This document shows, piece by piece, positions 11,005 to 29,927 of a stretch of DNA of 29,927 bases; the first letter of the stretch is position 1, and each line of letters opens with the position of its first letter. Source of the stretch: a virus; IMG/VR virus record IMGVR_UViG_3300022198_002113, positions 1-29,927 of that record, one strand, 5' to 3'. The notes below the pieces were generated by a model that did no database searches, had not been told where the DNA came from, and saw only the letters and a list, made by a program, of their open reading frames with translations. The translations under genes were made by a program, and so were the position numbers.

Positions 11005-11019
11005 CACTGAGGAACGCAA

Positions 11020-11820
11020 ATGGGACTTCTTTCAACTATCGGTGGAATGGTCGGTCTATCAATCGGCGGGCCGGTTGGCGCGGCCATTGGTGCTGGTATT
11101 GGCTCTCTAGCGAGCGGGGGCGATCTAAAGGACGCGCTTACCGCCGGTCTTATGGGCTACGGCATCGGCTCTATTCCGGGAGTTGCCAGTACTTTAGGTG
11201 GGCTCGCCGGTGCGGCTGGTTTGTCAGGCACAGCCTCCAACCTAGCAATGCAGGCGGCTAACCCGAACGCGCTCGGCAAGATGGCTCAGAGCTTCGGCTC
11301 GAACCTGATGGGTGGCGCAGGTGGCGCAGGTGGCGCTGCTGCGGGTGCAGGTGGGGCGGCTGGTCAGGGTGCCGGGGGTATCAGTAGCTTGCTCCAGTTC
11401 GCAGAGAGCCCGCTCGTTATGGCTAGTTTGATGCAGATGGCCTCACCTAAGAACGTCGAGTTGATGACGGCGGAACAACGCGCACAGATGGCTACAGGTG
11501 AGCGCCTTCCGGACTACCAAGGCACTGCAGTTCCGGGTAGCTATACACCTGCTCCCGCCACCCCAGTCCCTGTTCCGGGTCTACAGCGACCTCGCGCCTA
11601 TGCTCGTGGTGGCATGATCAAGGGTCCGGGTAACGGGACCAGCGATTCTATTCCGGGGACCATCTACCAAGGCAACAAGCCGGTTGAGGATATCGCGGTG
11701 TCTGATGGTGAGTTCATCATGACCAACCGCGCTGTCAAAGGTGCCGGTAACGGCGATCGCAACAAGGGCGCAGCCCGCATGTATCAGATGATGCGTGAGT
11801 TCGAGCAAAGGGTATCGTAA
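11020..11820 (+). CDS. Gly/Ala-rich virion protein with GPGxGTSDSIPG...SDGEF(I/V)M domain, 266 aa
   Basis: Residues 1-60 are a glycine-zipper-like hydrophobic stretch (IGGPVGAAIGAGIGSLASGG), a form seen in proteins that insert into membranes. The middle, about residues 95-125, is a Gly/Ala repeat made by near-tandem GGTGGCGCA units. The C-terminal domain has ARGGMIKGPGNGTSDSIPG, then VSDGEFIMTNRAVKGAGNGD, a well-known block in marine phage virion proteins. The membrane-active start and position before three internal-virion-type genes make a DNA-ejection role plausible; that is inference. Confidence 0.7.
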   Translation: MGLLSTIGGMVGLSIGGPVGAAIGAGIGSLASGGDLKDALTAGLMGYGIGSIPGVASTLGGLAGAAGLSGTASNLAMQAANPNALGKMAQSFGSNLMGGAGGAGGAAAGAGGAAGQGAGGISSLLQFAESPLVMASLMQMASPKNVELMTAEQRAQMATGERLPDYQGTAVPGSYTPAPATPVPVPGLQRPRAYARGGMIKGPGNGTSDSIPGTIYQGNKPVEDIAVSDGEFIMTNRAVKGAGNGDRNKGAARMYQMMREFEQRVS

Positions 11821-13088: not shown

Positions 13089-13093
13089 CCTCG

Positions 13094-14599: not shown

Positions 14600-14600
14600 T

Positions 14601-17600: not shown

Positions 17601-19019
17601 CAGTTTCAAGCTGGTGTCCGGGCAGAAGGTCTACATCGCCTGAGCAGCTATGTTGCTATGGCGAGCGTGATTCCGAAGCAAATCCAACGAGCCTCTATGG
17701 TGGCTACAGGCACAACGGAAGACGACATCCAAGCAGCCAAACGCCTCGGCCCTGAGTACCTATCTGGCGTTGATCTCATCGTCACCAAGAACGACGGTGA
17801 AGGCAAGATGGAGGTCATCAATCTTAACCAAACGGCACCTTATGCTTTCGCTCTCGAAGGCGCACAGGCTGCTATTGAGGCGTATGCTGAGACGGGCGAT
17901 CTCGGTGGCTCAACCATCAAACAGATATCTGACGCCACGATTGCCGGGGTGGGTAAGTATTTTGAGCCGTTCTTAGCCCCAACTATCGTAGCCGATAGAG
18001 TTGCTGATGCAGTGGCGCGTGGAGGTAGGACCGCCGAAGGTGCTTATGTTTACTACAAGAGCGATTCGCTATCTGATAAAATCGTGGCTAGTATGTACCA
18101 CACTATGGATGTGTTCCTTCCCGGATACGTTCGTCTTGGTGTGACAGCTCAAGGGGGCACTATTGAGCCGGGTAATGTGACGCGAGCTGTACAAGGCATA
18201 CCAAGCAAACAGGGCGATGAACTTACCAAGATGGAGGAGTTCGGTAAGATCCTTACAGGTGCGACTCCGATCCGCATCGATGCCTTCAAGCAAGGTAAGT
18301 TCAAAGCGGAAGAATACTCTAATGTTCGTTCGGAGGCCAAAGGCGAAGCCTCTCGGGAAATAAAACGCCCTGACAAAACAAAAGAGCAGATGCTCGCCGC
18401 TTGGCAAACATATAACGACAAGATGTACCGTGCGCAGTCCATGCTCTACGGTGACATCCAAGCGATGCGGGCGCTCGGTGTGCCAGACCAGAAGATACGC
18501 GTTGCGTTGATCAAGTTTGCAGAAGAAGGTCGAAGAGAAGTAAGCTCTATTATGCGCGGAGAGTTCTACCCCGGCTACTATTCCAGAGACGCTGCGGCTA
18601 AATTCCGTCGTGAGATCACTGAGGGGTATGACAATCGTCTCGTTATGGAGCCGCCAATCACAGAACTGCGCGAAATATCTAAGTCTCGACAAGGTGAAAA
18701 GCTCGACCCACTTCGGTTCGCACGTGAGCAAGACGATCCGTTTTCTGGTATTGGCACTGATCTTGAGTTTGGTGGGCAATCTACAGCGAGCCCGTTTGCC
18801 GGTATCGGTGATGGTCTCGACTACCTACCCCAGCCTCAGTCTGTCGGTCCTGTGACGTATCAACCACCGGAACCCGCTGCACCTGCCACTCAGGTGCCAA
18901 ACGAGTTGTTGGGTGGCAACCCGTACGAGCAGATGCAGAACGCGCCGCTGCAGTCGCTTAGGCCGATGGCTCGGACGGGGATGATGCAGTCGCTCCGACC
19001 GATGAGTCGTCCGCAGTAG
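14601..19019 (+). CDS. giant internal virion / DNA-ejection type protein, 1472 aa
   Basis: The GTG at 14601 follows GGAG (14591-14594) and the previous stop. At 1472 residues it is the largest gene here, in the position and size of podovirus internal core proteins. Around residue 733 lies VILNPASRIRDMIGSTGMVF, comparable to the KTxxNPAxQIRN-type segment in podovirus core proteins (from memory). Much of the rest is predicted helical. The short motif PF(A/S)GIG-x2-L(E/D)(Y/F) occurs once at residues 7-17 and twice at about 1379-1410. The end has two copies of QSLRPM(A/S)R. No lytic transglycosylase or protease motif was found. The last 62 bases overlap a gene on the other strand. Confidence 0.75.
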   Translation: MADTENPFAGIGDTLEYSDPVEDYEGGAFYNTVKGVRNATSFVADVAQGLLTSPVTMMQGILELGSSGFDLAFDTDTTSSVSDTFNAVNDWVVPESSAGQVANQIGAFGLGFIPVAGWLNRANAAAKGLNVTSKSRYMRTAEDFGRSALGQKVLGNRAKLIGSTAVAYGGYGYAFSPDGRATLSDSVDWLPDVLETEDTSGLQGRERALATLRNKGRNATEDALMSLGFDAAIAGVGAGMRTAAPYIGDAINTAKENSAVQATFNALNNVTSSGPATAAKKKFQAFFSPDQGADPLVMEAKRNAQAKVSGEKAIAADLVGELDNTVRRFVKASGVQGTNGARNPDQVWADLNNYLDGNISSLPAGYPAKAQELADAILQRQAKLFDEVSYELEQIVKNDPGVGPRSIEAEKVRFEMLNNQSQNKNRLRRVFDVHRRPLDFYKGFDINDPRLDRAIKEVGINQRRMNGINRQGALTATEEATARKTVLESLGLYSANNRITLDQALDAKIKSLEEIAQFSRGEKVVKPRGADLRADEGLFIERQKLLDKSPTLRSLMGEIKDPKDRVIETIDSIASTAASMRFYSDVYAKNTKSFGSAITAIENGGRPLVIEVPDRLVMNSVDYRMAMAPIEQRAMQESARLNTNVTANEMLQQYQRDLVDVHGYVKLGSMSTTEGNAKTIIGGEFGELSGKYVPREMYDALTSPRKMEHNALRAAVALANSAVGQVQRATVILNPASRIRDMIGSTGMVFGSGNLMRDMDIAGNIQLAFNSFKNLDDIGLAAKREQLEMAGVRDSNVVLQLLKQFRTESEELGQGVISSKLVRAGQSINNMPVYRQINKAFEDVAAGTDLLMKVTALTAEEQKLRAIYAKAGLDVRNPAAAQALIDAGLATKATNDAVANITPRGQAGSLRPTLSRSQALDPVEVIAAQRVRAMLPNYGMVGTGVRQVYERAPVFGNFTSFAFETIRNSVNILDTGMKELSFKLSDDAAAAIRRAGGNPEQFQAGVRAEGLHRLSSYVAMASVIPKQIQRASMVATGTTEDDIQAAKRLGPEYLSGVDLIVTKNDGEGKMEVINLNQTAPYAFALEGAQAAIEAYAETGDLGGSTIKQISDATIAGVGKYFEPFLAPTIVADRVADAVARGGRTAEGAYVYYKSDSLSDKIVASMYHTMDVFLPGYVRLGVTAQGGTIEPGNVTRAVQGIPSKQGDELTKMEEFGKILTGATPIRIDAFKQGKFKAEEYSNVRSEAKGEASREIKRPDKTKEQMLAAWQTYNDKMYRAQSMLYGDIQAMRALGVPDQKIRVALIKFAEEGRREVSSIMRGEFYPGYYSRDAAAKFRREITEGYDNRLVMEPPITELREISKSRQGEKLDPLRFAREQDDPFSGIGTDLEFGGQSTASPFAGIGDGLDYLPQPQSVGPVTYQPPEPAAPATQVPNELLGGNPYEQMQNAPLQSLRPMARTGMMQSLRPMSRPQ

Positions 19020-19601: not shown

Positions 19602-20042
19602 CTATCGTACGTGTACGCTCACCTGCGCTTCGGTGAACATCTCCATAGATAGCTTCATATCACAGGCCCAACGCTCAGCGAACTCTCGATCTGGTGTCGG
19701 CCAGCACACGTGCTTGATCCCCATCTGAATGATCTGCGCTGCACACTGCGTACAGCAGGGATGCGTACAGAACAGCGTGGCGCCCTCCAGCTTACCGGTG
19801 GCGAACGCCATCGCGTTACACTCGGCGTGGAGGATCATCTTATACTTGATGTCTCGGTTCTGCAGACGCGCTGGGCTGTCCTCGACACCGCGTGGGAGCC
19901 CGTTGTAGCCAGCAGAAACAAGCCGTCTTTTGTCGTCAAAGATCACAGCGCCAACTTGACTACTAGGATCCTTACTCAACTTGGCCACATGCCGAGCCAT
20001 CTCGACCGCCCAGTCCCACAAACGCTGCTCTTCGAAGTTCAT
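19602..20042 (-). CDS. dCMP deaminase, 146 aa
   Basis: Zinc-dependent deamination of dCMP to dUMP feeds dTMP synthesis during phage replication. The conserved catalytic block HAECNAMAFA is at residues 72-81 (His72 zinc ligand, Glu74 catalysis), and PCCTQCAAQIIQMGI supplies Cys97 and Cys100. DPSSQVGAVI and AGYNGLPRGV are the usual N-terminal family segments. The frame is open further upstream, but the ATG at 20042 overlaps the stop of the regulator gene by four bases and matches the normal family start. No thymidylate synthase lies in the window. Confidence 0.92.
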   Translation of the reverse strand: MNFEEQRLWDWAVEMARHVAKLSKDPSSQVGAVIFDDKRRLVSAGYNGLPRGVEDSPARLQNRDIKYKMILHAECNAMAFATGKLEGATLFCTHPCCTQCAAQIIQMGIKHVCWPTPDREFAERWACDMKLSMEMFTEAQVSVHVR

Positions 20043-20377
20043 GTGTTCTTCATCCTTTTCTGAAGAGATTCCCCAGTCCCACGTGGACGCCCATCGAGCC
20101 AATCCTTGACCTCTTTGAAGTACCACCTCTTGGCAGATGTCGTTGTGATATCATTCGACATTACCAACGGTTTGGGGAACATGTCCTCTTTGATCCACTT
20201 GTAAATCGTGCGGTCCGCTATGCCGATCCATAGCGATATTTGCCGTATGCTGATCAGTCTGTCTTCTGGTTTTGGGAAGACCCCATTATCCATCAGGCGC
20301 AACACAGACATCTCGTCCGTGTTGAGGAGCTTCGCCACCTCGGCCAATACCTGTTGCTGCTTCTTCGTCGGTTTCAT
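20039..20377 (-). CDS. AlpA/MerR-like winged-helix DNA-binding regulator, 112 aa
   Basis: Residues 41-95 form an AlpA-type unit: LISIRQISLWIGIADRTIYK as helix-turn-helix, WIKEDMFPKP as the linking segment, and RWYFKEVKDWL as the closing strand and helix. Such proteins act as small transcription regulators or recombination-direction factors. The first 40 residues are an extra helical part (QQQVLAEVAKLLNTDEM). It heads the leftward deaminase operon and diverges from the gene at 20405, so it may control both. No integrase is visible, so I prefer regulator over excisionase. Confidence 0.75.
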   Translation of the reverse strand: MKPTKKQQQVLAEVAKLLNTDEMSVLRLMDNGVFPKPEDRLISIRQISLWIGIADRTIYKWIKEDMFPKPLVMSNDITTTSAKRWYFKEVKDWLDGRPRGTGESLQKRMKNT

Positions 20378-20404
20378 ACTACATACGACATGAAAGGAAA
20401 GTTA

Positions 20405-20767
20405 ATGGAAGAAGACGAACCGTTAACCCGCGAGGAGCTGATGACGCATTGGCAACTGTGCCGCATCGCCATCGACTTCAAGAACAAACACCTGACGCGC
20501 AAAGAGGCCATAGCAGAGTTCTCTAAGTGGTCAGGCATGCCGAGTCTCATCGCTTGGATGATGCTCGATCCTATGCGCAAGGAAACCATATGGGATCTCC
20601 GTAAGAGCTTTCCGAAATGGATCAACAAAGAGGACGAGCCAAAGTTCAAAGACACCACCTACGGTACTCGCAAGACGCCCTACACCAAAGGCAAGCCAAG
20701 AGGCATGGCAGTAGCGCGTAAACTCAAGCAGGTTCCCCCTGAACAATCTGGCGATACGCCTCCTTGA
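20405..20767 (+). CDS. hypothetical protein, 120 aa
   Basis: The frame is open from 20240, but the 5' part overlaps the AlpA gene on the other strand. The ATG at 20405 follows AAAGGA (20394-20399), and an alternative ATG at 20390 adds five residues. The protein is helical and charged, with DPMRKETIWDLRKSFPKWI in the middle and a basic Pro/Lys end (TRKTPYTKGKPRGMAVARK). I do not recognise a family. Its position between the AlpA gene and the lysis cassette suggests regulation or packaging, but this is a guess. The last 44 bases overlap the small RHH gene on the other strand. Confidence 0.65.
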   Translation: MEEDEPLTREELMTHWQLCRIAIDFKNKHLTRKEAIAEFSKWSGMPSLIAWMMLDPMRKETIWDLRKSFPKWINKEDEPKFKDTTYGTRKTPYTKGKPRGMAVARKLKQVPPEQSGDTPP

Positions 20768-20885
20768 TCAGGAAACCCAACTGCCGCGCCATGCTGCGCT
20801 GCTCGAACTCTGCCAGCTCTTGCAACAATGCGTGATCTTCTTTCCGAAGGGCCACGTTCTGGAACTCCGCCTTCTTCTTTTTCAT
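20724..20885 (-). CDS. Arc-like ribbon-helix-helix regulator, 53 aa
   Basis: The product starts with four lysines. Its core AEFQNVALRKEDHALLQELA then EFEQRSMARQLGFLIKEAY fits the ribbon-helix-helix fold: a short strand (FQNVAL), helix A, a turn, and helix B carrying SMARQLGFLI. These dimeric proteins bind inverted repeats as repressors. GGAG lies eight bases before the ATG. Upstream is a promoter with an inverted repeat flanking its -10 element, which suggests self-control and control of the divergent lysis gene. Its 3' end overlaps the gene at 20405 by 44 bases. Confidence 0.75.
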   Translation of the reverse strand: MKKKKAEFQNVALRKEDHALLQELAEFEQRSMARQLGFLIKEAYRQIVQGEPA

Positions 20886-20898
20886 GGTCCAACTCCGT

Positions 20899-20944
20899 CC
20901 AATGTGTTAAATTTAGTTATACATTGGATGTTGGTAGTACACAA
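20899..20944 (-). promoter_or_regulatory. promoter and probable operator between RHH gene and lysis cassette
   Basis: Read leftward: TTGTGT (20944-20939), a 17-base spacer, then TATAAC (20921-20916), a good sigma-70 form. Perfect 7-base inverted arms CCAATGT (20899-20905) and ACATTGG (20921-20927) bracket the -10. A repressor bound there would block this promoter and possibly one toward the endolysin gene. Which protein binds is inferred from position. Confidence 0.6.
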
Positions 20945-20958
20945 GTCTGGGGTCTGAA

Positions 20959-21588
20959 ATGAAGAAGCACTACTCTCACTATTCGCAAGTGCCCAGTGAG
21001 GACTGGCCGTGGAAGTCGTTTTCGCCGCAGGAAATTGCCTCCAAGGGGGAGGGGGAACTGCTGGTTGACACGGATGCGATGGACCGTCTGCAAGCGCTTC
21101 GTGATCGGCTCGGCAAGCCCCTCGTGCTGACAAGCGCCTATCGCAGTCCAGAACACAATCGGCGTGTCGGCGGGGCAAAGAACAGCTACCACATGCAGGG
21201 CGTGGCCTTTGATGTGCGAATGGAAAACCACGATCCGCACCGGTTTGAGGCGACGGCTCGGGCCGAGGGTTTCACCGGCTTTGGGTACTACCCGAAGAGT
21301 GGCTTCATGCACATTGACACCGGGCCGGAACGCAGCTGGGGCAAGCCGTGGCCCAAGACCGCGACGGACTGGCCCGAGGAGGTTGAGCGCAAGCCTGAGA
21401 CGCTGGGCGAGGACACAGAGGCGCAAGCGACCGCAGGTGCCGCAGTGGCGGGTGCAGTTGCGGGAGCGGCGGAGCATGTGCCTGCCGTCAGCGGTTTGCT
21501 CGGGCAGCTTGCCCCGACGGCGCAGCTTGTGGCGATCTGCGTCGCGGCATTGCTGCTGGGCTACGTACTCTGGAAGAAGCTGAAGTGA
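20959..21588 (+). CDS. M15-family peptidase endolysin with C-terminal membrane anchor, 209 aa
   Basis: Peptidase M15 (D-Ala-D-Ala carboxypeptidase-type) domain, residues about 20-125: SAYRSPEHNRRVGGAKNS, then SYHMQGVAFDVR with His78 and Asp85, and GFMHIDTGPERSW with His118, giving the zinc-binding His/Asp/His set. It would cut peptide bonds in peptidoglycan. After a Glu/Thr linker comes an Ala/Gly-rich stretch and, at about 189-205, a membrane helix (VAICVAALLLGYVLW) ending in KKLK. A C-terminal anchor is unusual for a phage lysin of this class. No N-terminal signal peptide is seen. The TGA overlaps the next ATG. Confidence 0.88.
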   Translation: MKKHYSHYSQVPSEDWPWKSFSPQEIASKGEGELLVDTDAMDRLQALRDRLGKPLVLTSAYRSPEHNRRVGGAKNSYHMQGVAFDVRMENHDPHRFEATARAEGFTGFGYYPKSGFMHIDTGPERSWGKPWPKTATDWPEEVERKPETLGEDTEAQATAGAAVAGAVAGAAEHVPAVSGLLGQLAPTAQLVAICVAALLLGYVLWKKLK

Positions 21589-21779
21589 TGCTCCGGCTCA
21601 AACTCTGGCTTGCAGCGGCAGGTGCGTTCATCGTGGCGCTGCTCGCGGCATACTGGAACGGTAAGAGCAAGGCGAGGGATGAGGGATATGCAGACACGCG
21701 CAAGCGCATGGACGAAGTTGACCTTGGCAATGACCCTGATGCCGCTCGCCGCTGGCTGCACGAGCGTGGTGAGCGGTGA
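21588..21779 (+). CDS. inner-membrane spanin-like protein (Rz type), 63 aa
   Basis: ATG at 21588 overlaps the endolysin stop (TGATG); a GTG at 21585 is also possible. One N-terminal transmembrane helix (LWLAAAGAFIVALLAAYW, residues about 6-23) is followed by a charged helical tail. This is the shape of an i-spanin, although short. The second half of the gene also encodes the o-spanin in another frame, as in classic Rz/Rz1 pairs. The pair would link and fuse inner and outer membranes in the last step of lysis. Confidence 0.75.
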   Translation: MLRLKLWLAAAGAFIVALLAAYWNGKSKARDEGYADTRKRMDEVDLGNDPDAARRWLHERGER

Positions 21780-21906
21780 GGCCATCTGTGATGCGACATC
21801 CGCCAGCCGCACGGCGCACGCAGCCGCGCTTGCGGAGGATGGTGGCGACAGGTCGGTGGTTACAGGCGCGTATCTCATTCGGCAGATAGACGCGGCTTGT
21901 CAGTAA
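21688..21906 (+). CDS. outer-membrane spanin lipoprotein (Rz1 type), 72 aa
   Basis: The chosen ATG at 21688 has AGGCGAGGG nine bases upstream. A lipoprotein signal peptide runs from a basic start to the lipobox LAAGC, with the lipidated Cys at residue 24, leaving a mature protein of about 49 residues. The gene begins inside the i-spanin gene in the +1 relative frame and continues past its end, an overlapping Rz/Rz1 arrangement. Nothing else in the interval would explain a perfect lipobox. An ATG at 21679 in the same frame would add three residues. Confidence 0.8.
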   Translation: MQTRASAWTKLTLAMTLMPLAAGCTSVVSGEAICDATSASRTAHAAALAEDGGDRSVVTGAYLIRQIDAACQ

Positions 21907-21967
21907 TTGCGCTAGGTGGCGTAGTCCGTGCCTGCCGGACGCAGGTAGCGTACCCCATACGCGACAG

Positions 21968-22008
21968 CCCCGGCACGGAGCCTCAACCGTTGCCGGGGTT
22001 AGTTTTTT
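21968..22008 (+). terminator. rho-independent terminator of the lysis operon
   Basis: Stem CCCCGGCA-CGG (21968-21978) pairs with CCG-T-TGCCGGGG (21987-21998) with one bulged base, and TTAGTTTTTT follows. It stops + strand transcription after the spanins. The right arm and loop also encode the end of the - strand gene at 21983-22231. Confidence 0.85.
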
Positions 22009-22231
22009 CGATCAGGGCGAGGATGGCGTTTTCTACAGCTTCTCCGCGGCGGTAGCGGTATTCTCTTGCTGCATCTAAGGCCTCCCGCAGCGCATCCTCT
22101 CGTGCAGTCGCTACCAGTGCATCTGATACGTCTTTGCGGATGTATTGAACATCGTAGACACCTACTGATGGCTCATTAGTATATCCCGGCATACCGGGAC
22201 TTGCCCAAATCTGTTCTGGTGCTTCTGTCAT
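21983..22231 (-). CDS. hypothetical early phage protein, 82 aa
   Basis: The start MTEAPEQIWASPGMPGYTNE, then YDVQYIRKDVSDALVATA and a helical Glu/Arg-rich end, matches a loose class of small phage accessory proteins with EQIWA...EYIRxD segments. No function is known for them. It is the last gene of the leftward operon and overlaps its upstream neighbour by four bases (ATGA). Its last codons form the right arm of the opposite-strand terminator. Confidence 0.7.
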   Translation of the reverse strand: MTEAPEQIWASPGMPGYTNEPSVGVYDVQYIRKDVSDALVATAREDALREALDAAREYRYRRGEAVENAILALIEKTNPGNG

Positions 22232-22548
22232 GTGTCGGACCCTTCGCGGTAGGCGGCTAGGGCGTTCTTTAGCCTGTAGATTGCATCGCTTACGTCTGGA
22301 TCTTCGGTTGTTTCCCAGAACCCGACAGCATCCGCCAGCGCATCCGCTTTGGTGATACGTGCTTCGAGGGTGGCTATCTGTTCGCCACGGTGGCTGTATT
22401 CGCGGGATAGGTTGTCAAACGCGGATTGCAGTTCTTCGATGCGGGCGGCGGCTTCACGCATCAAAGCAGTGTCACTCCCCCATGCGATTTTTTCGCCCAT
22501 CTCTATGACGCCAGCTTTGATCGTCAGGCGCTTCACCAGATCACTCAT
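22228..22548 (-). CDS. hypothetical helical/coiled-coil phage protein, 106 aa
   Basis: The start at 22548 follows GGAGGG at about eight bases; the frame further upstream belongs to the overlapping gene. The middle is a long charged helix (LMREAAARIEELQSAFDNLS, then EQIATLEARITKADALADA) likely to form a coiled coil. Similar Ead/Ea22-like proteins with MSDLVKRL starts are common in phage accessory operons and have no fixed role. Overlaps the genes on both sides. Confidence 0.7.
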   Translation of the reverse strand: MSDLVKRLTIKAGVIEMGEKIAWGSDTALMREAAARIEELQSAFDNLSREYSHRGEQIATLEARITKADALADAVGFWETTEDPDVSDAIYRLKNALAAYREGSDT

Positions 22549-22753
22549 CGCCCAAGCCCTCCGGCCTCGCCACAGGGCGCGGTGAGGCGCTAAGCAGCGT
22601 TGACCGCTCACACAACACCGCCACGTCGTCATAGGACGCTTCAAGGATGGCTTGCATGGGCTGCAAGGCCGCGCCGCACTCTGCCTCGCTGGGGAAGAGG
22701 ACGCGAGATTCCACGTCGCCGTACAATGCGATAAGGATGGTCCACAGCTTCAT
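22541..22753 (-). CDS. hypothetical small protein, 70 aa
   Basis: MKLWTILIALYGDVESRVLF gives a short hydrophobic start, perhaps a signal or membrane segment, and SEAECGAALQPM with two Cys (Cys26 and Cys48) could form a disulfide. A Pro/Arg tail ends the protein. Similar MKLWT-type small proteins occur in phage early operons. The ATG overlaps the previous stop by four bases, and its own end overlaps the next gene by eight. Confidence 0.65.
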   Translation of the reverse strand: MKLWTILIALYGDVESRVLFPSEAECGAALQPMQAILEASYDDVAVLCERSTLLSASPRPVARPEGLGDE

Positions 22754-22986
22754 TTATCCATCTCCTGCGCATCCCGAATGGCACTGGCCTTGTATTGGCA
22801 CCAGTCTGGCGTTTCGTTTGTGTCGATTGGCAGCTTGCGGGACTGACTGTCTTCGGTCTTGTTCCAAACGCACGTCCCGCCGATGTAGCCGCGACAGCAA
22901 AAGCCACCGCTCAAGCACTTAGCGACCAGAGCGCCAGGATTGTCTTTGCGTTCTATTATCACTGGTCCGAATGTGTATTGGGTCAT
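22750..22986 (-). CDS. hypothetical Cys-rich protein, 78 aa
   Basis: Five Cys residues (24, 30, 31, 39, 63), with the cluster CLSGGFCCRGYIGGTC, suggest metal binding or disulfides. The rest is polar. No family recognised. Overlaps its neighbours by four bases each, as in the rest of this block. Confidence 0.65.
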   Translation of the reverse strand: MTQYTFGPVIIERKDNPGALVAKCLSGGFCCRGYIGGTCVWNKTEDSQSRKLPIDTNETPDWCQYKASAIRDAQEMDK

Positions 22987-23198
22987 AGTTCCGCGTTCCT
23001 TTCCATCATTGCATGAAATTTGTCATCCTCCGCCATCTCAGCAAGTGCGGCGGCTTCTTCGTCATTGGCGCGGGCGCACTGGTCGCAAGCCCACTTGTCG
23101 CGCTCGTATTCGGTCAGGTCATCCTCGATGAAATCGCACTCGCAATAATCGCAGCGGAATGTTTCCTCGAAGGCAGGCGGGTAGAGCCAAGAAGCCAT
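22983..23198 (-). CDS. small zinc-ribbon-like protein, 71 aa
   Basis: Two Cys pairs, Cys16-x2-Cys19 and Cys38-x2-Cys41 (CDYCEC and CDQC), with 18 residues between, are laid out as a zinc ribbon. An acidic, Ala-rich helix follows. I chose the ATG at 23198 because it overlaps the stop of the 30-residue gene upstream (TGATG); a start at 23210 would add four residues. Role unknown; such proteins often bind nucleic acid or a host protein. Confidence 0.7.
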   Translation of the reverse strand: MASWLYPPAFEETFRCDYCECDFIEDDLTEYERDKWACDQCARANDEEAAALAEMAEDDKFHAMMERNAEL

Positions 23199-23290
23199 CA
23201 GAACCCCCATCCGTAGGCGATGAACAGGAGCATAAACGGCAGGGCCAGAACGCAGATTGCGCCGAGCAAATCTTCAATGAAGTGTCTCAT
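23198..23290 (-). CDS. 30-aa membrane peptide
   Basis: Thirty codons from ATG 23290 to TGA 23198-23200. The start MRHFIEDLLGAICVL is followed by a run of hydrophobic residues to YGWGF, so about residues 9-27 can span a membrane. Both ends overlap neighbouring genes (ATGA and TGATG), which argues that it is translated. Tiny proteins with an M-(R/K)-x-F-(I/L)-(E/D)-D-x-(I/L)GA start occur in rhodobacterial phages and prophages, as I recall. Function unknown. Confidence 0.65.
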   Translation of the reverse strand: MRHFIEDLLGAICVLALPFMLLFIAYGWGF

Positions 23291-23493
23291 GCCGTCCACC
23301 CCGCCTGTTGAACCTCGCGTAGCGCCTTGATGCGGTTGCGCATTTCTTCGCGCGTGCAGCCGTGGTCGATGATGTGGTCTATGTCCGCTGCCATCTCTAG
23401 CAGCGGGGTGACGTTTGCGCCCTCGCGGTTGCCAGAGCGTATCGCGTCATAAATCGCGTCACTCAGCACGCGCATCGCTTCGTCGTAAGTCAT
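23287..23493 (-). CDS. hypothetical helical protein, 68 aa
   Basis: Acidic and helical: MTYDEAMRVLSDAIYDAI, then LLEMAADIDHIIDHG and CTREEMRNRIKALREV. No motif or family recognised. It shares one base with the upstream stop (TAATG at 23491-23495) and four bases with the next gene, so it belongs to the coupled block. Confidence 0.65.
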   Translation of the reverse strand: MTYDEAMRVLSDAIYDAIRSGNREGANVTPLLEMAADIDHIIDHGCTREEMRNRIKALREVQQAGWTA

Positions 23494-23756
23494 TAGTGTA
23501 CTCCGTCTTCTGGCCCTACGGCCAAGTTAAGTTGATGTATTGCCTCGGCCTCGAGGGCCATCGTTGCTGCGTCGAGGGCGAGCATGTCGAAGTCTTCTTC
23601 GCCCCCGTAGTTGCGTATCAATACGCTGAGCAAAGTCTTGAGCTGGTCAGAACTCATGCGCAGCGGTGAGAACGAACTGATGATCTCTATGTATTTCAGG
23701 AACTCAGCGTTCGTCATTGGTTTGTCTGTAAAAGAAAATTCGTACTCGCCCCGCAT
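23493..23756 (-). CDS. hypothetical protein, 87 aa
   Basis: Start at 23756 is supported by GGAG about eight bases upstream; a later ATG at 23717 has no ribosome site. This start puts 53 bases inside the end of the upstream helix-turn-helix gene. The protein is helical with segments SSDQLKTLLSVLIRNYGG and MLALDAATMALEAEAIHQL. No family recognised. Confidence 0.65.
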   Translation of the reverse strand: MRGEYEFSFTDKPMTNAEFLKYIEIISSFSPLRMSSDQLKTLLSVLIRNYGGEEDFDMLALDAATMALEAEAIHQLNLAVGPEDGVH

Positions 23757-24018
23757 CGTGGTACTCCGATCTGGCTAGTTGCTTCCTCTCAAGATACCCG
23801 AGAAGGAACTTCCCACGCTCCTGAGACACGCCAATCATGCTGCCCAAGTCAGAACCGGTCAACATCCCCTTCCGGCGCAACGCAGACAGCGCAGCGAGAT
23901 ACTCTTTTGGTACTCGCTGCGCTACACCACCCTGACCCCCGTCACCAGCCGACATCATCGACTGGTTCTCGAGGATCGACATGGCTCTCAGGCCTTGGGC
24001 ATACTCACTTTCCGTCAC
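23704..24018 (-). CDS. winged-helix-like DNA-binding protein, 104 aa
   Basis: After a flexible Gly/Gln-rich part, residues 38-98 look like a winged helix: EYLAALSALRRKGMLTGSDL, GSMIGVSQERGKFLLGYLER as helix-turn-helix with recognition helix, and RVRIFFYRQ as the wing. Possible transcription regulator within the early operon. The first bases overlap the end of the zinc-ribbon gene by 14 bases. Family assignment is by fold pattern only. Confidence 0.65.
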   Translation of the reverse strand: MTESEYAQGLRAMSILENQSMMSAGDGGQGGVAQRVPKEYLAALSALRRKGMLTGSDLGSMIGVSQERGKFLLGYLERKQLARSEYHDAGRVRIFFYRQTNDER

Positions 24019-24241
24019 GTGAAAGCTCGTTCACTTTGTCATGCAGAAACTTCACTTGCTTCATCGCAGCGTCGTTCTGCTGTTCCATGAACACCAACTC
24101 AGTGACAAACCAAGCAGTCGACTTGCGATCCAACTCACCGCTGATCAGCATGTGGAAACACCGGTTACACAGATCCTTGCTGTTGCCTGTCAGATTGCCG
24201 CAGTTGCGCACAATGCACCGTATCTTAGACGTCTGGCTCAC
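24005..24241 (-). CDS. small zinc-finger-like protein, 78 aa
   Basis: I chose GTG at 24241 because it overlaps the upstream TGA (GTGA); a longer start at 24268 would lie inside the upstream gene. Cys9-x4-Cys14-x10-Cys25-x2-Cys28 (CIVRNC and CNRC) makes a likely zinc site. A helical tail with QNDAAMKQVKFLHDKVNEL follows. Similar zinc proteins occur in phage early regions with unknown roles. Confidence 0.7.
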   Translation of the reverse strand: MSQTSKIRCIVRNCGNLTGNSKDLCNRCFHMLISGELDRKSTAWFVTELVFMEQQNDAAMKQVKFLHDKVNELSRDGK

Positions 24242-24738
24242 AGGAACTTTTCCGGGTCTGTGGCCCACAGCACGTTCATCGCTCGGCGGTTAGAATGATG
24301 GAAGATATCCGCCCGTGCCACCGTACCCTGAGTGAAGAGCCGGTTCAGCCGATCGCGCACCATGACCGTCTGCTCGTTCACCTCACGCGCAATCTCACGC
24401 GTCGTCAGGTATGACTCGGCATCCTCCAACGCGTCCATGATGCGCTCATCAAGGTCTGCAAGTTTATCCAACAGCGGCGACGGCTCGTCGTACTCAGCCT
24501 CATCAGGGTCACCTCCGATGGGCTCGACGTAGATACCCATGTACTCCGTCTGCCGACCCGGTGTGTTTCTGATCAACTTCGCCATGCGCTTCTCACCTGC
24601 GATGAGGTTGGCGGCCATTGTCACTCCCGGCGGGATGTACACACCCTCACCTGTCTCAGGCACAACGCCGAAGCCGTCGTTCTTGATCGTCAGGTTGGTG
24701 ATCAGGATTTCTTTTTCGATTGTCGGTTGCTGTTCCAT
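24238..24738 (-). CDS. protein with OB/cold-shock-like N-terminus and winged-helix C-terminus, 166 aa
   Basis: Residues 8-72 (ILITNLTIKNDGFGVVPETG, GVYIPPGVTMAANL, then YMGIYVEP) have the beta pattern of a cold-shock/OB-type nucleic-acid domain. Residues 96-160 look like a winged helix (LTTREIAREVNEQTVMVRDR, LNRLFTQGTVARADIF). An acidic linker joins them. It may act on DNA or as a regulator of phage transcription. It is expressed from its own copy of a duplicated promoter-leader unit. Domain calls are from strand/helix pattern and memory of similar phage proteins. Confidence 0.65.
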   Translation of the reverse strand: MEQQPTIEKEILITNLTIKNDGFGVVPETGEGVYIPPGVTMAANLIAGEKRMAKLIRNTPGRQTEYMGIYVEPIGGDPDEAEYDEPSPLLDKLADLDERIMDALEDAESYLTTREIAREVNEQTVMVRDRLNRLFTQGTVARADIFHHSNRRAMNVLWATDPEKFL

Positions 24739-24740
24739 GT

Positions 24741-24799
24741 TATGTCTCCTTGGTTAACATGTTTCATACTATATGTAACTTTTTAGGATTTACAAGAGG
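24741..24799 (-). promoter_or_regulatory. promoter and leader, copy 1 of a duplicated 59-bp unit
   Basis: Leftward: -35 TTGTAA (24795-24790), 16-base spacer, -10 TATAGT (24773-24768), then an A/T-rich leader and AAGGAGA ribosome site before the ATG at 24738. The -35 overlaps the stop codon of the upstream gene. The 59 bases are identical to 25141-25199 except at two positions. Confidence 0.75.
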
Positions 24800-25137
24800 T
24801 ATTCTTCAATCCATTCCTTGAGTTCTTCGACTGTTTTGGCGTTGTCATACTCCTGCTGCTTGCGAGTCTCATACTCATGGCGGCGCTGGAGTTCTTGCGC
24901 CTTTTCCTCGCACCAGCGGCAGACAGTATGGCCGTAGCTTTGACGAGATAGACTCACCTTACCTTCGCAAGATGAAGAGATACCGCTTTCACAGTCTGGC
25001 ATTGTGGCGCGGGCCTTCAATGCGGTATCCCGCTTGTCTGCGTATGCGTGTCCGTGCGCTTCGCAATATCTCTTGTTGCCCCAACGACGATGGTAAATCG
25101 CTTGCTCGGTACAGAAATCCTTCTTGCACTTAGGCAT
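24790..25137 (-). CDS. double zinc-knuckle-like protein, 115 aa
   Basis: Two potential metal sites are visible: Cys4-x4-Cys9-x15-Cys25-x2-His28, and Cys49-x7-Cys57-x15-Cys73-x2-Cys76. The C-terminal third is a charged helix (EKAQELQRRHEYETRKQQEY) with a Glu-rich end. No family recognised; a nucleic-acid- or protein-binding adaptor is likely. Expressed from copy 2 of the duplicated promoter. Its stop codon TAA lies in the -35 of copy 1. Confidence 0.7.
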   Translation of the reverse strand: MPKCKKDFCTEQAIYHRRWGNKRYCEAHGHAYADKRDTALKARATMPDCESGISSSCEGKVSLSRQSYGHTVCRWCEEKAQELQRRHEYETRKQQEYDNAKTVEELKEWIEEYLL

Positions 25138-25140
25138 TCT

Positions 25141-25199
25141 TATGTCTCCTTGGTTAAGATGTTTAATACTATATGTAACTTTTTAGGATTTACAAGAGG
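25141..25199 (-). promoter_or_regulatory. promoter and leader, copy 2 of a duplicated 59-bp unit
   Basis: Leftward: -35 TTGTAA (25195-25190), 16-base spacer, -10 TATAGT (25173-25168), leader and AAGGAGA ribosome site before the ATG at 25137. It differs from copy 1 only at 25158 and 25165, and lies exactly 400 bases away. Confidence 0.75.
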
Positions 25200-25342
25200 G
25201 GATTTTTTGGTATTCTTACTTTTAGTTCGGGAGGGTTCCCGGATCGTGGGCCGCGCACATCAGCGGTAGTCGTACCCCATATGGTGCGCGAGTTATCGGG
25301 TTTAGCGCCCCGGTGATTCTCTTCCCTGTTCGCTACCACCTA
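25200..25342 (+). other. non-coding gap with several hairpins; possible small RNA
   Basis: No credible gene. On the + strand there is TTCGGGA-GGGT-TCCCGGA (25226-25243), CGCGCAC (25252-25258) pairing with GTGCGCG (25284-25290), and ATCGGG (25295-25300) pairing with CCCGGT (25309-25314). A terminator follows directly at 25343. GGTAGTCGTACCCCATA (25265-25281) is almost the same as GGTAGCGTACCCCATA at 21944-21959, also just before a terminator. A weak + promoter (TTACAA, 15 bases, TATTCT) may exist at 25190-25216. This could be a small RNA or a structured leader; not recognised as a tRNA or known family. Confidence 0.4.
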
Positions 25343-25373
25343 ACCCGCCGGTCATCGATCGGCGGGTCTTTTT
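25343..25373 (+). terminator. rho-independent terminator, + strand
   Basis: ACCCGCCG (25343-25350) pairs with CGGCGGGT (25360-25367). Part of the 9-base loop can also pair, and CTTTTT follows. No + strand gene ends nearby, so the transcript it stops must begin in the non-coding gap or be antisense to the early operon. The T-run touches the stop of the - strand gene at 25372. Confidence 0.85.
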
Positions 25374-25614
25374 ATGTGATAATCGTTTCCCTCTGCTTTG
25401 CGCAAAGAGTGTGATGAAGAAAACCAACCAGACCAATGGCTTCCTGCAGGTCGCTAGTTGCGTAAGTCGTAAACGTGGCGTGACCCGTAAGGCTACCCGC
25501 CAAAGCAACAGAGCGAAGCCTACCGCTCTTGGCCATCTCCAGAGCCTCCTCGAGCGTAGCGACGGTGTCTGCGTCCGGTTCGGAGTTTCGGTCCTGTAGT
25601 TTAATCGTACTCAT
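25372..25614 (-). CDS. conserved small phage protein, 80 aa
   Basis: The core reads DADTVATLEEALEMAKSGRL, RSVALAGSLTGHATFTTYAT and SDLQEAIGLVGFLHHTLCA. I recall close relatives in phages and prophages of alphaproteobacteria, with no function assigned. Start at 25614 follows AAGGAGATTGAA. The stop abuts the opposite-strand terminator. The start overlaps the previous gene's stop by four bases. Confidence 0.7.
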   Translation of the reverse strand: MSTIKLQDRNSEPDADTVATLEEALEMAKSGRLRSVALAGSLTGHATFTTYATSDLQEAIGLVGFLHHTLCAKQRETIIT

Positions 25615-26171
25615 TTCAATCTCCTTTTTACGCCTTTGCTGGAGTTACAGCTGCGACACAGCAGTTGGTATGTAGACCTTGAAGCGTGGTACTTAATCCA
25701 CGGTTCAGGGTCGGCCAAGTGCCAACCCGCGCAGCTCTTATTTGTAACAAGTTTGACGTCGCTACTCTCGAGGTATTCTTTCGCAATAACAGAGAACGGC
25801 GGATCGACGTGGTCAACAGTCAGATGCGTGGTCTCGCCGCAATATGCGCACTCCTTCGGCTCCGCGTCATGAAACACTGTCGCCAAGTCATCCCGGACTG
25901 CTGTGCGCAGCGCGTCGTCATAGCGTTCTTTATCCTTAGCTCCGCGTATCGCCTTGCTCCACGAGAACGGCCCGTCAATACCGCACTCCGTCTGCACAAT
26001 GAGGTGACGTGTGTTGTTCGGATATCCCGGACATGGCATCCGTGTAATGCTCAGGAACTTAAAACCGCAAAGAGCACCTGCGATCTGCAGGTGCTCCTCG
26101 TTGAACGGCTTCCCGAACATATTAACGTCTATGATCGCCCGCATCTTCGCGAGCTTATCTTTCTGTGTCAT
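25611..26171 (-). CDS. HNH/DUF3223-like zinc nuclease protein, 186 aa
   Basis: The second half has Cys108-x2-Cys111 (CAYCGE), then LTVDHVDPPFSVIAKEYL with His121, and Cys172-x2-Cys175 in LLCRSCNSSKGVKRR. This is a split HNH-type zinc fold. The region with KLVTNKSCAGWHLADPEPWI, then YHASRSTYQLLC, recalls DUF3223-type HNH-linked proteins. The first 100 residues are a separate domain with PGYPNNTRHLIVQTECGID. A nicking or cutting activity is possible. It lies in the early operon below the helicase. The exact catalytic set is less complete than in classic HNH enzymes. Confidence 0.65.
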   Translation of the reverse strand: MTQKDKLAKMRAIIDVNMFGKPFNEEHLQIAGALCGFKFLSITRMPCPGYPNNTRHLIVQTECGIDGPFSWSKAIRGAKDKERYDDALRTAVRDDLATVFHDAEPKECAYCGETTHLTVDHVDPPFSVIAKEYLESSDVKLVTNKSCAGWHLADPEPWIKYHASRSTYQLLCRSCNSSKGVKRRLK

Positions 26172-26340
26172 GCCCTAACGCCTTATTTGCCAACATGCCG
26201 TAGAACTGTGCCGCTGGGCCTTCGGAGACCTTGGCGATGTCCGAGATCTCACGCAGTGCGTCCTCGAGCTCCTTCACTCGGTGGCGCAGTGCCTCGACCT
26301 CGGCGTCCCTAACGCCCCCTGTGAACAGCTGGTCTGGCAT
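26155..26340 (-). CDS. small coiled-coil protein, 61 aa
   Basis: ATG at 26340 overlaps the upstream TGA (TGATG); a GTG at 26343 lies just before. The middle is a heptad-like helix (AEVEALRHRVKELEDALREI). The last 17 bases overlap the HNH-type gene. Similar coiled-coil proteins are common in phage early regions; no function known. Confidence 0.65.
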   Translation of the reverse strand: MPDQLFTGGVRDAEVEALRHRVKELEDALREISDIAKVSEGPAAQFYGMLANKALGHDTER

Positions 26341-26510
26341 CACCAGTGCTCCAACCGCTTTAAGTTCTCCACTTCATCCTCGAGGCGCTCGACCTCCGCC
26401 ACCAGTTCGTCGATCCTGTCGAACAGCTCCTCGTGCTCCGGCAGGATGCGGCGGTACATGGAGGTATGACCATCCCGCAAGAGGGTCAGTGCTACTTCTT
26501 TGTCGATCAT
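26340..26510 (-). CDS. small coiled-coil protein, 56 aa
   Basis: ATG at 26510 is preceded by GAGG. The N-terminal part is MIDKEVALTLLRDGHTSMYR, and the rest is an acidic coiled coil (DRIDELVAEVERLEDEVENL) ending KRLEHW. It may pair with the next gene's coiled coil, since the two overlap (TGATG). Function unknown. Confidence 0.65.
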   Translation of the reverse strand: MIDKEVALTLLRDGHTSMYRRILPEHEELFDRIDELVAEVERLEDEVENLKRLEHW

Positions 26511-26519
26511 ATCAAGTCC

Positions 26520-26741
26520 TCACTCGTCGCAATCTGGGTCGCTGTAGTCCATTTCGCAAATGCAACGGTATATACATACTTGCAATGCGACGTCTCTTAT
26601 CCGTTCATCATCCCACTTTTTTGGGTCAACACCTAAGTCCCTGTCAAAATGGAGAAAAAGACCCCATAGGCAGTTGGCCGCAATCTCTAAATCAAGATCA
26701 GATCTTTCTTTGTGATTTCTTTTAAGCTGGAACTTATCCAT
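26520..26741 (-). CDS. hypothetical small protein, 73 aa
   Basis: A strong ribosome site (AAGGAGATAATGTGAC) precedes the ATG at 26741. Segments LDLEIAANCLWGLFLHFDRD and DDERIRDVALQVCIYRCICE are helical; four Cys (24, 56, 60, 62, with one more near the end) may bind metal. No family recognised. It sits directly after the helicase gene. Confidence 0.65.
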   Translation of the reverse strand: MDKFQLKRNHKERSDLDLEIAANCLWGLFLHFDRDLGVDPKKWDDERIRDVALQVCIYRCICEMDYSDPDCDE

Positions 26742-26762
26742 GTCACATTATCTCCTTCTGGG

Positions 26763-28091
26763 TCATATCATTTCCTTCAGCGTTAGCTGTGCTGCTTGTT
26801 TGCCAGACAGCGACTTCGCTATCTTAGCGTCGATCGTATCTCTCGCCGTCACGTAGTGTATGTACACTGTCTCCTTCTGCCCTTGTCGAGCAAGCCGTGC
26901 GTTGACCTGCTCATGCGCCTCCTGTGAATACGTCAGCGACATCCAGATGAGTCGTCTGCCACCCGACTGCAAGTTCAGACCATGTGACGCCGACGCCGGG
27001 TGCAGCGCCATTACTGGCACTTCACCGCGGTTCCACGCCTCTATCGCCTCACGCGCCTCCTTGGCGCTCGTGCCGCCGCCAAGCACTGGCATATCAGGCC
27101 ATATATCACGCAGCTTCGCGGCCTCCGCGCGGAACTGATATACAATCAGACAGTTCTCACCCGAGTCCTCCACGATCTCACGGACCGCATTCACCTTCGT
27201 GTCATGCACGTCGATCGCATCGCCGAGCTCATCAAGCACCACGCCGCTCGCGATCTGACGCAGCTTGATACCCAACGTCGTCTGCTGCAGCGCCATGATG
27301 TCCGTGCCGCTGAACCGCGCCACGCACTCCTTCTCCAGCTCCTCATACTGACGCATCACACCGCGCGGCAGCACCACATCATTAAACACCGGAACCGGGT
27401 CGCTAAACACAGGCACCTCAACCCTGAAGCACCGGTTCGCATAATCCTGATCAAGCGCTTCCGCACACCCCGGCAGCTCACGCCACACATGCCCGAACTG
27501 ATCAACCGCCTGAAAATACGACGCCCGCCACGCGTAGAAACTCAGCCCCCAAACACTCGGAAACACAGCGTCCACAATCCCCCAGTAATCCAACCGCCCG
27601 TTCGCATACGGACTACCAGTCAACCCAACTCGCCGACCCGCGAACGCCATCATCTTCTTGATCGACTTGCGCCGCTTAGACTTCGCCGACTTCAGCTTCG
27701 TCACCTCGTCGAAATACACCGCCGTCCGGTTGCCCGCCTCGAACCGCTGCTGCTCAAGCCACGGCGCCAACTCATAGTTGACCATCAGCACCTGCCAATC
27801 AGACGCCATCACCTTCTTACGCTGAGCAGCCGTCTTACCAGCCAACGTCTCAACACGCAGGCCAAACCCCCACTTCTCATTCTCCTCAACCCACGTCACC
27901 TGAGCCACACGCAGCGGAGCCCACACAACAGCGCGGTCAATATCCCCTCTGGCAATCAACGTCTTGATCGACTGCAACGAGACCGCCGACTTACCAGCCC
28001 CCATCTCCGCAACCCAGATCACATTCGACTTCCGACACAAATGCGCCAGAGCCTCCTCCTGATAATCATGAAACCGTAGCAAACCACTCAT
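26763..28091 (-). CDS. SNF2-family DNA helicase/translocase, 442 aa
   Basis: I chose ATG at 28091 with GGAAGGA upstream. Helicase motifs: Q-like FHDYQEEA near residue 10; Walker A EMGAGKS at 29-35; VWAPLRV at 56-62 as motif Ia; motif II DEVTKLK at 128-134, where DE-V replaces DEAH; motif III LTGSPYANG at 157-165; and motif VI QVNARLARQGQ at about 396-406 with arginine fingers. This is the compact phage SNF2 type, which uses ATP to move on double-stranded DNA in replication or recombination. It overlaps the VRR-NUC gene by 26 bases, and such pairs recur in phages. Confidence 0.9.
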   Translation of the reverse strand: MSGLLRFHDYQEEALAHLCRKSNVIWVAEMGAGKSAVSLQSIKTLIARGDIDRAVVWAPLRVAQVTWVEENEKWGFGLRVETLAGKTAAQRKKVMASDWQVLMVNYELAPWLEQQRFEAGNRTAVYFDEVTKLKSAKSKRRKSIKKMMAFAGRRVGLTGSPYANGRLDYWGIVDAVFPSVWGLSFYAWRASYFQAVDQFGHVWRELPGCAEALDQDYANRCFRVEVPVFSDPVPVFNDVVLPRGVMRQYEELEKECVARFSGTDIMALQQTTLGIKLRQIASGVVLDELGDAIDVHDTKVNAVREIVEDSGENCLIVYQFRAEAAKLRDIWPDMPVLGGGTSAKEAREAIEAWNRGEVPVMALHPASASHGLNLQSGGRRLIWMSLTYSQEAHEQVNARLARQGQKETVYIHYVTARDTIDAKIAKSLSGKQAAQLTLKEMI

Positions 28092-28335
28092 CCACTTGAT
28101 CCTTCCCGTATAACACTTCCACATTGCACCCGAGCCCAGACAACTTGGCGATCACCGCCTTCTGTATCTTGCTCAGCCGACCCTTGTCCGTCTTCAACTC
28201 CACAAACACAACAACACCTCCCGGCATCATAACCAACCGGTCAGGTATGCCCTTCGTACCAGTCAGCTTGATCGTCCAACCACCGCGCTGAACAACCTCC
28301 TGCCGAAAATATCGCTCCAGTCTGCTTTCGCGCAT
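28066..28335 (-). CDS. VRR-NUC domain nuclease, 89 aa
   Basis: The whole protein is one VRR-NUC domain: N-terminal Glu (RESRLERYF), GTKGIPDRLVMMPGG with Asp32, VVVFVELKTDKGRLSKIQ with Glu46 and Lys48, and Gln58. These are the metal and catalytic positions of this PD-(D/E)XK-type family, which includes structure-specific DNA nucleases such as FAN1. Phage members usually sit beside an SNF2 helicase, as here, and probably process branched DNA. It heads the leftward early operon. Confidence 0.9.
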   Translation of the reverse strand: MRESRLERYFRQEVVQRGGWTIKLTGTKGIPDRLVMMPGGVVVFVELKTDKGRLSKIQKAVIAKLSGLGCNVEVLYGKDQVDEWFATVS

Positions 28336-28391
28336 TGACCTGTTCGCCGTTCTTAGTTACACACTTTTATACACACGAAAGGGAATGTCAA
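28336..28391. promoter_or_regulatory. divergent promoter region between VRR-NUC operon and RHH/DUF2800 operon
   Basis: Leftward there is a perfect -35 TTGACA (28391-28386) with TATAAA 14 bases later (shorter than usual) and TAAAAG at 16 bases as an alternative -10. Rightward there is TTATAC at 28367-28372 as a -10 candidate with no clear -35. The RHH protein encoded to the right may bind here. Exact elements are uncertain. Confidence 0.5.
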
Positions 28392-28556
28392 ATGTTAAAA
28401 CCAAAAGGGCAACTCGTGCGTGTCAACGTGACGATCGATGCCGATCTGTTGGATCGTTTCGACGCGTCGATCGCCAAACTCAATCTGCGCCGTTCGCAGG
28501 CGCTGACTGAACTGATCAAAACCTACTTAAAAGGAGAAGACAATGGCAGCGACTAA
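28392..28556 (+). CDS. ribbon-helix-helix (Arc/CopG-type) regulator, 54 aa
   Basis: ATG at 28392 follows AAAGGG. The frame is open upstream, but those codons lie in the promoter. Residues 7-45 form the fold: strand QLVRVNVTID, helix A ADLLDRFDASIAKLN, turn, and helix B RRSQALTELIKTYL. It is first in the operon with a nuclease and lies next to a divergent promoter, so self-regulation and control of both operons is likely. The end overlaps the next gene by 14 bases. Confidence 0.85.
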   Translation: MLKPKGQLVRVNVTIDADLLDRFDASIAKLNLRRSQALTELIKTYLKGEDNGSD

Positions 28557-29637
28557 ACACATGCTCAGAGGCGGGTCCAAAGCCGTCTATGATATCAACT
28601 GTCCGGGCGCCGCAACGCTCCGTGCAACGGTGCCTGATGAGCCCGCAGGAGAGGCGGCGATGCGTGGTAATGCATACCACGACGCGGCTGAACACGCGCT
28701 CAAAGAAGGCCTCAATGCTGAGGACCTGCTCGGCATGACATGGCGTGGATACACCGTCACCAAAGAAGTCATCGACCTGCATCTCAAGCCATACATCGGC
28801 TTCGTTGACGAACACGCAGACGACTGGGACTGGTTCGATGTCGAGCTGTTCATGACCCATCCGGACATCCAAGATTGCGGCGGAACTGCTGATTTGATTT
28901 ACAAAAAAGGCCGCACCCTCGGCATCGGCGACCTCAAGACAGGGCAGAACCTCATCTCCCCTAAAGCCGACTCGCTGCACTTCTACGCAGCCGTGGCAGT
29001 AATATCTCAAGACCTCGTCGATGACATCGATGACATCGAGCTGACCATCTTCCAACTCGGTGAAGTCAGGCAGGCAACCATCACCATCAAAGAACTGCTC
29101 GACTGGCACGACCGCTACTACGCGTCATACTCAGACGGCGAGAGCTTCAACAGCGGCAAGCACTGCACATGGTGCCCCGCCATGAGCATCTGCCCAGCCA
29201 AACGCGCCGTCGCCGAAGCCGCCTTCAAGTACAAGAGCATCGGCAACGACCTCGCTACCGCCCTCGAGATGATCCAAGAACTCGAGCCGTGGATCAAAGA
29301 GGTGAAGAAAGACGCCGAGAAAGCCATGATGGCCGGGGCCCACGTCGAAGGATGGAAAGTCGTCGAGACACGACCCACACGGAAATGGGCTGTTGACGAC
29401 ACAGAAGTCTTGGACTACCTTGAAGGAGCCGGGTTGGACCTTGATGCGGCGGCGCCTCGCAAGGTCATCACTCCGCCACAGGCGGAGAAGTTGCTCGGCA
29501 GTGTGGAAACAGAAATGGTCGTGTCAGTGTCATCGGGAACGAAAATTGCGCCGCTATCGGACAAATCCCCTGCTCTGAACGAGGAAGGATCACGTGATCT
29601 TTCGTCGCTCCATTTCGCAACTAAGGAGACTGTCTGA
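28543..29637 (+). CDS. DUF2800/Cas4-like PD-(D/E)XK nuclease with iron-sulfur Cys set, 364 aa
   Basis: RGNAYHDAAEHAL supplies the family His46; GTADLIYKKG with Asp117 and GIGDLKTG with Asp130 and Lys132 form the metal/catalytic site. Cys20 plus Cys208-x2-Cys211-x5-Cys217 have the spacing of the 4Fe-4S cluster in AddB, Cas4 and Dna2-type nucleases. It probably is a DNA end-processing exonuclease in recombination. Residues about 235-364 are an extra helical and disordered tail. AAGGAG precedes the ATG; the TGA overlaps the next ATG. Confidence 0.85.
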   Translation: MAATKHMLRGGSKAVYDINCPGAATLRATVPDEPAGEAAMRGNAYHDAAEHALKEGLNAEDLLGMTWRGYTVTKEVIDLHLKPYIGFVDEHADDWDWFDVELFMTHPDIQDCGGTADLIYKKGRTLGIGDLKTGQNLISPKADSLHFYAAVAVISQDLVDDIDDIELTIFQLGEVRQATITIKELLDWHDRYYASYSDGESFNSGKHCTWCPAMSICPAKRAVAEAAFKYKSIGNDLATALEMIQELEPWIKEVKKDAEKAMMAGAHVEGWKVVETRPTRKWAVDDTEVLDYLEGAGLDLDAAAPRKVITPPQAEKLLGSVETEMVVSVSSGTKIAPLSDKSPALNEEGSRDLSSLHFATKETV

Positions 29638-29927
29638 TGTCGACAGAACTTACTACCAACCTCGCCCCTACCGATTTCGTCGAGCAGGCCAAGGCGTTTG
29701 AAGCAACCGCCCCGCGCGTCAGCGGCAACAGCATGCCGATCATGCGCATGCTGAAGTCTGACGGATCGTGGGTCTATGGTGCCGACAGCACTGAGGTCGA
29801 AGAAGACTCAGAGTGGGCAATCCCGCCAGACTCCCTCGCGCAGGGTTTTATCGCATGGCATGCAGGTAAGGTCGAAGGCGAGCGCATGGCCACCTTCGGC
29901 AAGCCTGCTGTGGACCCGAGCTCGCTT
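29637..29927 (+). CDS. conserved phage protein downstream of DUF2800 nuclease, partial (97 aa seen)
   Basis: The ATG shares a base with the upstream TGA. The visible part has FVEQAKAFEATAPRVSGNSM, then PIMRMLKSDGSWVYGADSTE, VEEDSEWAIPPDSLAQGFIA and WHAGKVEGERMATFGKPAVD. Proteins of this kind (LRLLKxGxWVYGADxxEVE...GYIAW) commonly follow the DUF2800 or single-strand annealing genes in phages, as I recall, and may belong to the recombination set. The gene runs off the window. Confidence 0.7.
   Translation, partial: MSTELTTNLAPTDFVEQAKAFEATAPRVSGNSMPIMRMLKSDGSWVYGADSTEVEEDSEWAIPPDSLAQGFIAWHAGKVEGERMATFGKPAVDPSSL

Follow-up and report, generated by a model that had tools for sequence, protein, structure and literature searches.

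Two near-identical 60-bp units, each placed directly 5' of the start codon of a different gene, were found in the window, i.e. the whole stretch of viral DNA analysed (29,927 bases). Judged from its sequence, the pair is best read as a duplicated promoter, leader and ribosome-binding site (RBS). At a probability of roughly 0.75 we take the unit to be a self-contained expression cassette whose duplication came with the modular acquisition of one of the two genes behind it (the 115-aa or the 166-aa gene), the incoming module having been joined at the cassette. The features discussed are compiled in Table 1.

Table 1. Features of the window and the stretches of two related phages used for comparison
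Feature	Position	Strand	Details
Copy 1 of the 60-bp unit	24740..24799	-	-35 TTGTAA 24795-24790; 16-bp spacer; -10 TATAGT 24773-24768; leader; AAGGAGA
Copy 2 of the 60-bp unit	25140..25199	-	-35 25195-25190; -10 25173-25168
166-aa protein behind copy 1	24238..24738	-	probable C-terminal helix-turn-helix regulator; PHROG 2440, residues 95-144, E 7e-6
115-aa Cys-rich orphan protein behind copy 2	24790..25137	-	no family; TAA stop inside copy 1 -35
Closely spaced small genes beyond the 166-aa gene	21983..24268	-	from ORF list and mostly overlapping junctions
Divergent promoter-like site TTTACA-16-TATTCT	25189..25216	+	TG (TGG) before -10; -35 overlaps copy 2 -35
Candidate small RNA	25217..25372	+	156 nt; 59% G+C; no ORF; in largest gap of minus cluster
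Intrinsic terminator	25343..25372	+	11-bp stem (8 G-C pairs), then CTTTTT
CRP-901 (L006) stretch	12002-14335		four promoter-RBS units
CRP-902 (L136) stretch	12516-14356		four promoter-RBS units

The 60-bp repeat and its predicted expression signals

The pair, with a self-BLAST E value of 5e-22, is the longest repeat in positions 20000-29927, the early half of the 29,927-base record. The copies are identical at 58 of 60 bases with a start-to-start spacing of 400, in agreement with the earlier note except that its length of 59 bp was one base short at the left. On the minus strand the unit reads CCTCTTGTAAATCCTAAAAAGTTACATATAGTAT[g/t]AAACAT[g/c]TTAACCAAGGAGACATAA; it starts 4 bases upstream of the -35-like TTGTAA and is followed by C-ATG (24738) in copy 1 and by GA-ATG (25137) in copy 2, leaving a gap of 1 and 2 bases, respectively, before the start codon. 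The identical block is confined to the expression signals, namely the -35, spacer, -10, short leader and AAGGAGA, and its G+C content is 28-30% as against 55.5% for the record. Just beyond the repeat the sequence AAGAATA is common to both copies, an 11-base insert intervening in copy 2.

A pattern scan matched TTGTAA-16-TATAGT in both copies with 9 of 12 consensus bases (4 of 6 in the -35), and the -35, 16-base spacer and -10 listed in the earlier note were recovered at this motif level. Promoter-like sites as a class occur near chance in the region (8 found, 5.3 expected). Since they are not enriched, the promoter call relies on position and duplication, not on motif score. Counted in favour of a cassette were the abrupt end of the identity, close to the -35 on one side and to the ATG on the other, the presence of the same -35 and -10 at the same spacing beside the start codons in both copies, the unlike downstream proteins, the lack of a terminator between the copies, and the analogous repeats and gene shuffling of distant relatives by the tail protein described below. 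A near-identical noncoding unit directly 5' of unlike genes within one genome is the general mark of a start-proximal regulatory cassette, and this is what the window presents.

Genes and predicted transcripts

The proteins encoded downstream of the two copies are without similarity, as had been claimed. That each copy precedes a different early gene likewise holds as far as the genes differ, the term 'early' being taken from their position alone. The proposal that the -35 of copy 1 doubles as a stop codon was borne out by the sequence, the TAA of TTGTAA terminating the 115-aa gene. For the 166-aa protein, weak winged-helix Pfam matches below the cut-off were obtained, and its structure prediction was poor (pLDDT 38) and unusable.

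The likely genes from 28335 leftward to 21983 all lie on the minus strand and mostly overlap. Judged by the ORF list and the junctions, a single transcription unit probably comprises the small genes that follow the 166-aa gene. The sole sizeable gap in the cluster (25138-25371, 234 bp) contains copy 2 and a 172-bp stretch without a minus-strand gene. No tRNA gene was found in the window. At 6083-6559, 66-bp-period repeats (TLTGVSSTTAVGTVTATGDAVA repeats) lie within a 232-aa ORF, the product of which is repetitive and probably structural.

No minus-strand intrinsic terminator was found between the copies. Because the copies are co-directional and no terminator separates them, transcripts from copy 2 should continue through copy 1 and the genes below. 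The two promoters should thus act in tandem and give nested transcripts, so that the 166-aa gene and those downstream of it would be served by both. The 'two equally controlled transcripts' of the earlier note need to be corrected in this respect, from separate to nested ones.

In the mechanism that we propose, each unit would be a ready-made cassette consisting of a host-type sigma-70 promoter, a very short leader and a ribosome-binding site, and host RNA polymerase would transcribe leftward from both copies. From copy 2 would come a long transcript with the 115-aa gene and everything below it, and copy 1 a shorter one beginning at the putative regulator gene. The duplicate copy most likely arose as a gene was joined in by recombination at a unit, and the 60-bp direct repeat could act as a homology patch at which the intervening 115-aa gene could be exchanged or lost.

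A candidate small RNA divergent from copy 2

A feature missed in the earlier note is the promoter-like site on the plus strand, of the extended -10 type and back to back with copy 2, followed by a candidate small RNA. The simplest reading of these elements would be a small RNA transcribed divergently from copy 2, and such an RNA is likely. The candidate folds better than 200 of 200 shuffles (z -3.4; z -2.0 without the terminator). Its terminator is the only one this strong in the window, where 0.035 would be expected from shuffles, and no plus-strand gene that it could serve was recognised nearby. The spacing of the divergent arrangement is set by the 11-base insert, which is missing from the flank of copy 1; copy 1 is therefore without such an arrangement. 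No Rfam family was matched at gathering score; the leads anti-hemB, c4-a1b1 and isrK were far below their gathering scores, resting on the generic terminator or on one hairpin, and were dismissed. The 21-bp core of the candidate had no match in IMG/VR. If transcribed, this RNA would be a new phage regulator.

Searches for further copies and relatives

The motif search of the unit across the record, suggested earlier, recovered the two copies and no third, and searches of phages, plasmids, viral records and species genomes gave no further copy either. The best third-copy candidate, at 20371-20384 near a 112-aa HTH gene, was discarded as its score fell inside the shuffle range. There was no exact match in IMG/VR for the 22-bp core of the unit, none in species genomes for a 25-base pattern, and a BLAST search with the region hit neither phages nor plasmids.

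Single-sequence searches with the 115-aa, 166-aa, helicase and 1472-aa proteins revealed no relatives, and the DUF2800 protein matched one distant locus (26% identity). For the 656-aa tail protein, a profile that drew on the phages DSL-LC04, Pag-Yong1, CRP-901 and HTVC027P led to 80 IMG/VR loci with up to 61% identity. The phage of the window is a podovirus-like relative of the HTVC023P/CRP-901 phages and is not T4-like. The 166-aa gene was absent from 44 out of 44 tail-protein-relative records searched. Against these relatives the region's DNA yielded nothing beyond short, chance-like hits (14-35 bases) and the other early proteins (tblastn) only generic genes, e.g. the helicase; no relative carrying the early region of the window was found.

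Repeated units and gene order in tail-protein relatives

Self-comparison covered 29 genomes or fragments of tail-protein relatives, several of which carry genome-specific repeats directly 5' of start codons. The IMG/VR record G027 (L113) has, at 13336-17096, 6-7 near-identical sigma-70 promoter-leader-RBS units before small genes (TTGACA..TATGGGA..TATAAT..TTTAATAAATACAGGAGAA-ATG, the leader being followed by CAGGAGAA). These units and those of the roseophages CRP-901/CRP-902 resemble the window in the layout of -35, -10, short leader, purine-rich RBS and ATG and in their small-gene surroundings, the units of the roseophages adjoining an HNH-helicase-VRR nuclease module. CRP-901 differs from the window in having five copies (TTGTAATCTGTGACA..TGTCAC..TATATA..GAGAGAGAGGAA-ATG), some of which adjoin terminator hairpins, and a palindromic, operator-like core, the unit comprising TTGTAA, a TGTGACA/TGTCAC palindrome and a TATATA-like box. 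The units are unrelated in sequence between genomes, and profile searches do not cross from one to another. In Pag-Yong1 (L007), at about 9650-18950, a GGTTCAGCCTGAACC palindrome recurs directly upstream of many start codons and looks like an operator or start-associated repeat.

CRP-901 and CRP-902 infect the same host strain. Behind the helicase/VRR module the order is unit-A-unit-X-B-unit-C-D-unit-E in CRP-901 and unit-A-unit-C-B-unit-D'-unit-E in CRP-902, with A, B, C and E 84-99% identical, X missing and D replaced in the latter. The firm part of this case is the relocation of C: the cassette made of a unit and C (a 61-aa gene, 98% identical) lies behind unit 3 in one phage and behind unit 2 in the other. 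Five of the eight homology borders fall within 10 bp of a unit, which was reached in 0.08% of random placements (p = 0.004 with a stricter border set), although these values overstate the case and are partly circular because the shared units themselves pull alignment ends toward them. The words promoter and intergenic are not used in the description of the two phages (PMC10149686). The earlier suggestion that recombination between the window's units could delete the gene between them is supported by analogy with this pair only.

Alternative readings and wider meaning

The gene immediately behind copy 1 probably encodes a regulator, TGTAA-N11-TTACA runs from the -35 to the -10 edge in both copies, and the CRP-901 repeats show a clear palindrome between -35 and -10. 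These observations would suit a regulatory design in which two operator-promoter copies are bound by the same phage regulator, perhaps the 166-aa HTH protein, and owe their identity to selection or gene conversion, not to recent acquisition. We regard this as unlikely: the palindrome arms are just 5 bp long, and 60 bp are estimated to contain about as many such palindromes by chance; each of the two differences between the copies disrupts a small palindrome of copy 1, the identity extends to the non-palindromic leader and RBS, and the structure prediction for the regulator is poor. Even less probable is that the repeats are recombination or att-like ends of a mobile element around the 115-aa gene with an incidental promoter content. 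A single orphan gene of no family does lie between direct repeats, but the scan of early-region proteins matched no integrase, transposase or resolvase (there is an HNH gene nearby, though outside), the repeat stops at the translation signals and the promoter layout is the same in both copies. Assembly artefact or chance is hardly credible given the E value, a repeat shorter than the usual read and the two sites at which the copies differ, even though the sequence comes from a virus contig in a sequence collection and not from a finished isolate genome.

Taken as a duplicated expression cassette, the pair places the same switch before two unrelated neighbour genes and would be an example of the repeated control cassettes that seem to let phages take up, drop and rearrange small genes. 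Such cassettes would explain how small genes of unknown function can be plugged in ready for expression, and their fast turnover. As a tentative generalisation, on which we would not yet rely, genome-specific promoter-RBS repeats might be widely used for gene shuffling in this podovirus-like group, which is not T4-like, with every lineage evolving its own 50-70 bp unit as both promoter and recombination joint, and copy 2 of the window serving in addition as a divergent promoter with a small RNA. The CRP-901/CRP-902 comparison makes cassette-driven gene turnover testable outside T4-like phages.

Comparison with known repeat systems

PeSLs (promoter early plus stem-loop) are described from T4-like myoviruses (Arbiol et al., 2010; Comeau et al., 2014; cited in PMC4503421). 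The likeness to the window lies in a repeated unit among small genes, in the window with a putative early promoter of host sigma-70 type, that could provide homology for gene shuffling, and the difference in the stem-loop of the PeSL. The window's repeat has neither stem-loop nor terminator; its 60 nt form no stable hairpin (z-scores +0.5 and +1.0), and the only hairpin nearby ends the opposite strand outside the repeat. Shuffling of the PeSL type at units was seen only in the analogous CRP-901/902 pair, the stretches of which are a PeSL-like case outside T4-like phages.

The start-associated sequences SAS and ESAS of cluster K mycobacteriophages provide the other comparison (PMC3203893). The 13-bp SAS motif, GGGATAGGAGCCC, occurs many times over, and ESAS is SAS with a 17-bp inverted repeat and no clear promoter. 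Like the window's unit, they lie immediately 5' of the start codons of unlike genes and include the ribosome-site region. They are shorter, more numerous and not shown as promoters in that study, whereas the window's unit is long, is present twice and includes -35 and -10 boxes. On direct reading the motif GGGATAGGAGCCC is not in the window's unit, which has AAGGAGACATAA in its place. Owing to these differences from both systems the unit is filed under the general kind only, and it is best read as a start-proximal regulatory cassette, PeSL- or SAS/ESAS-like, left by modular gene acquisition.
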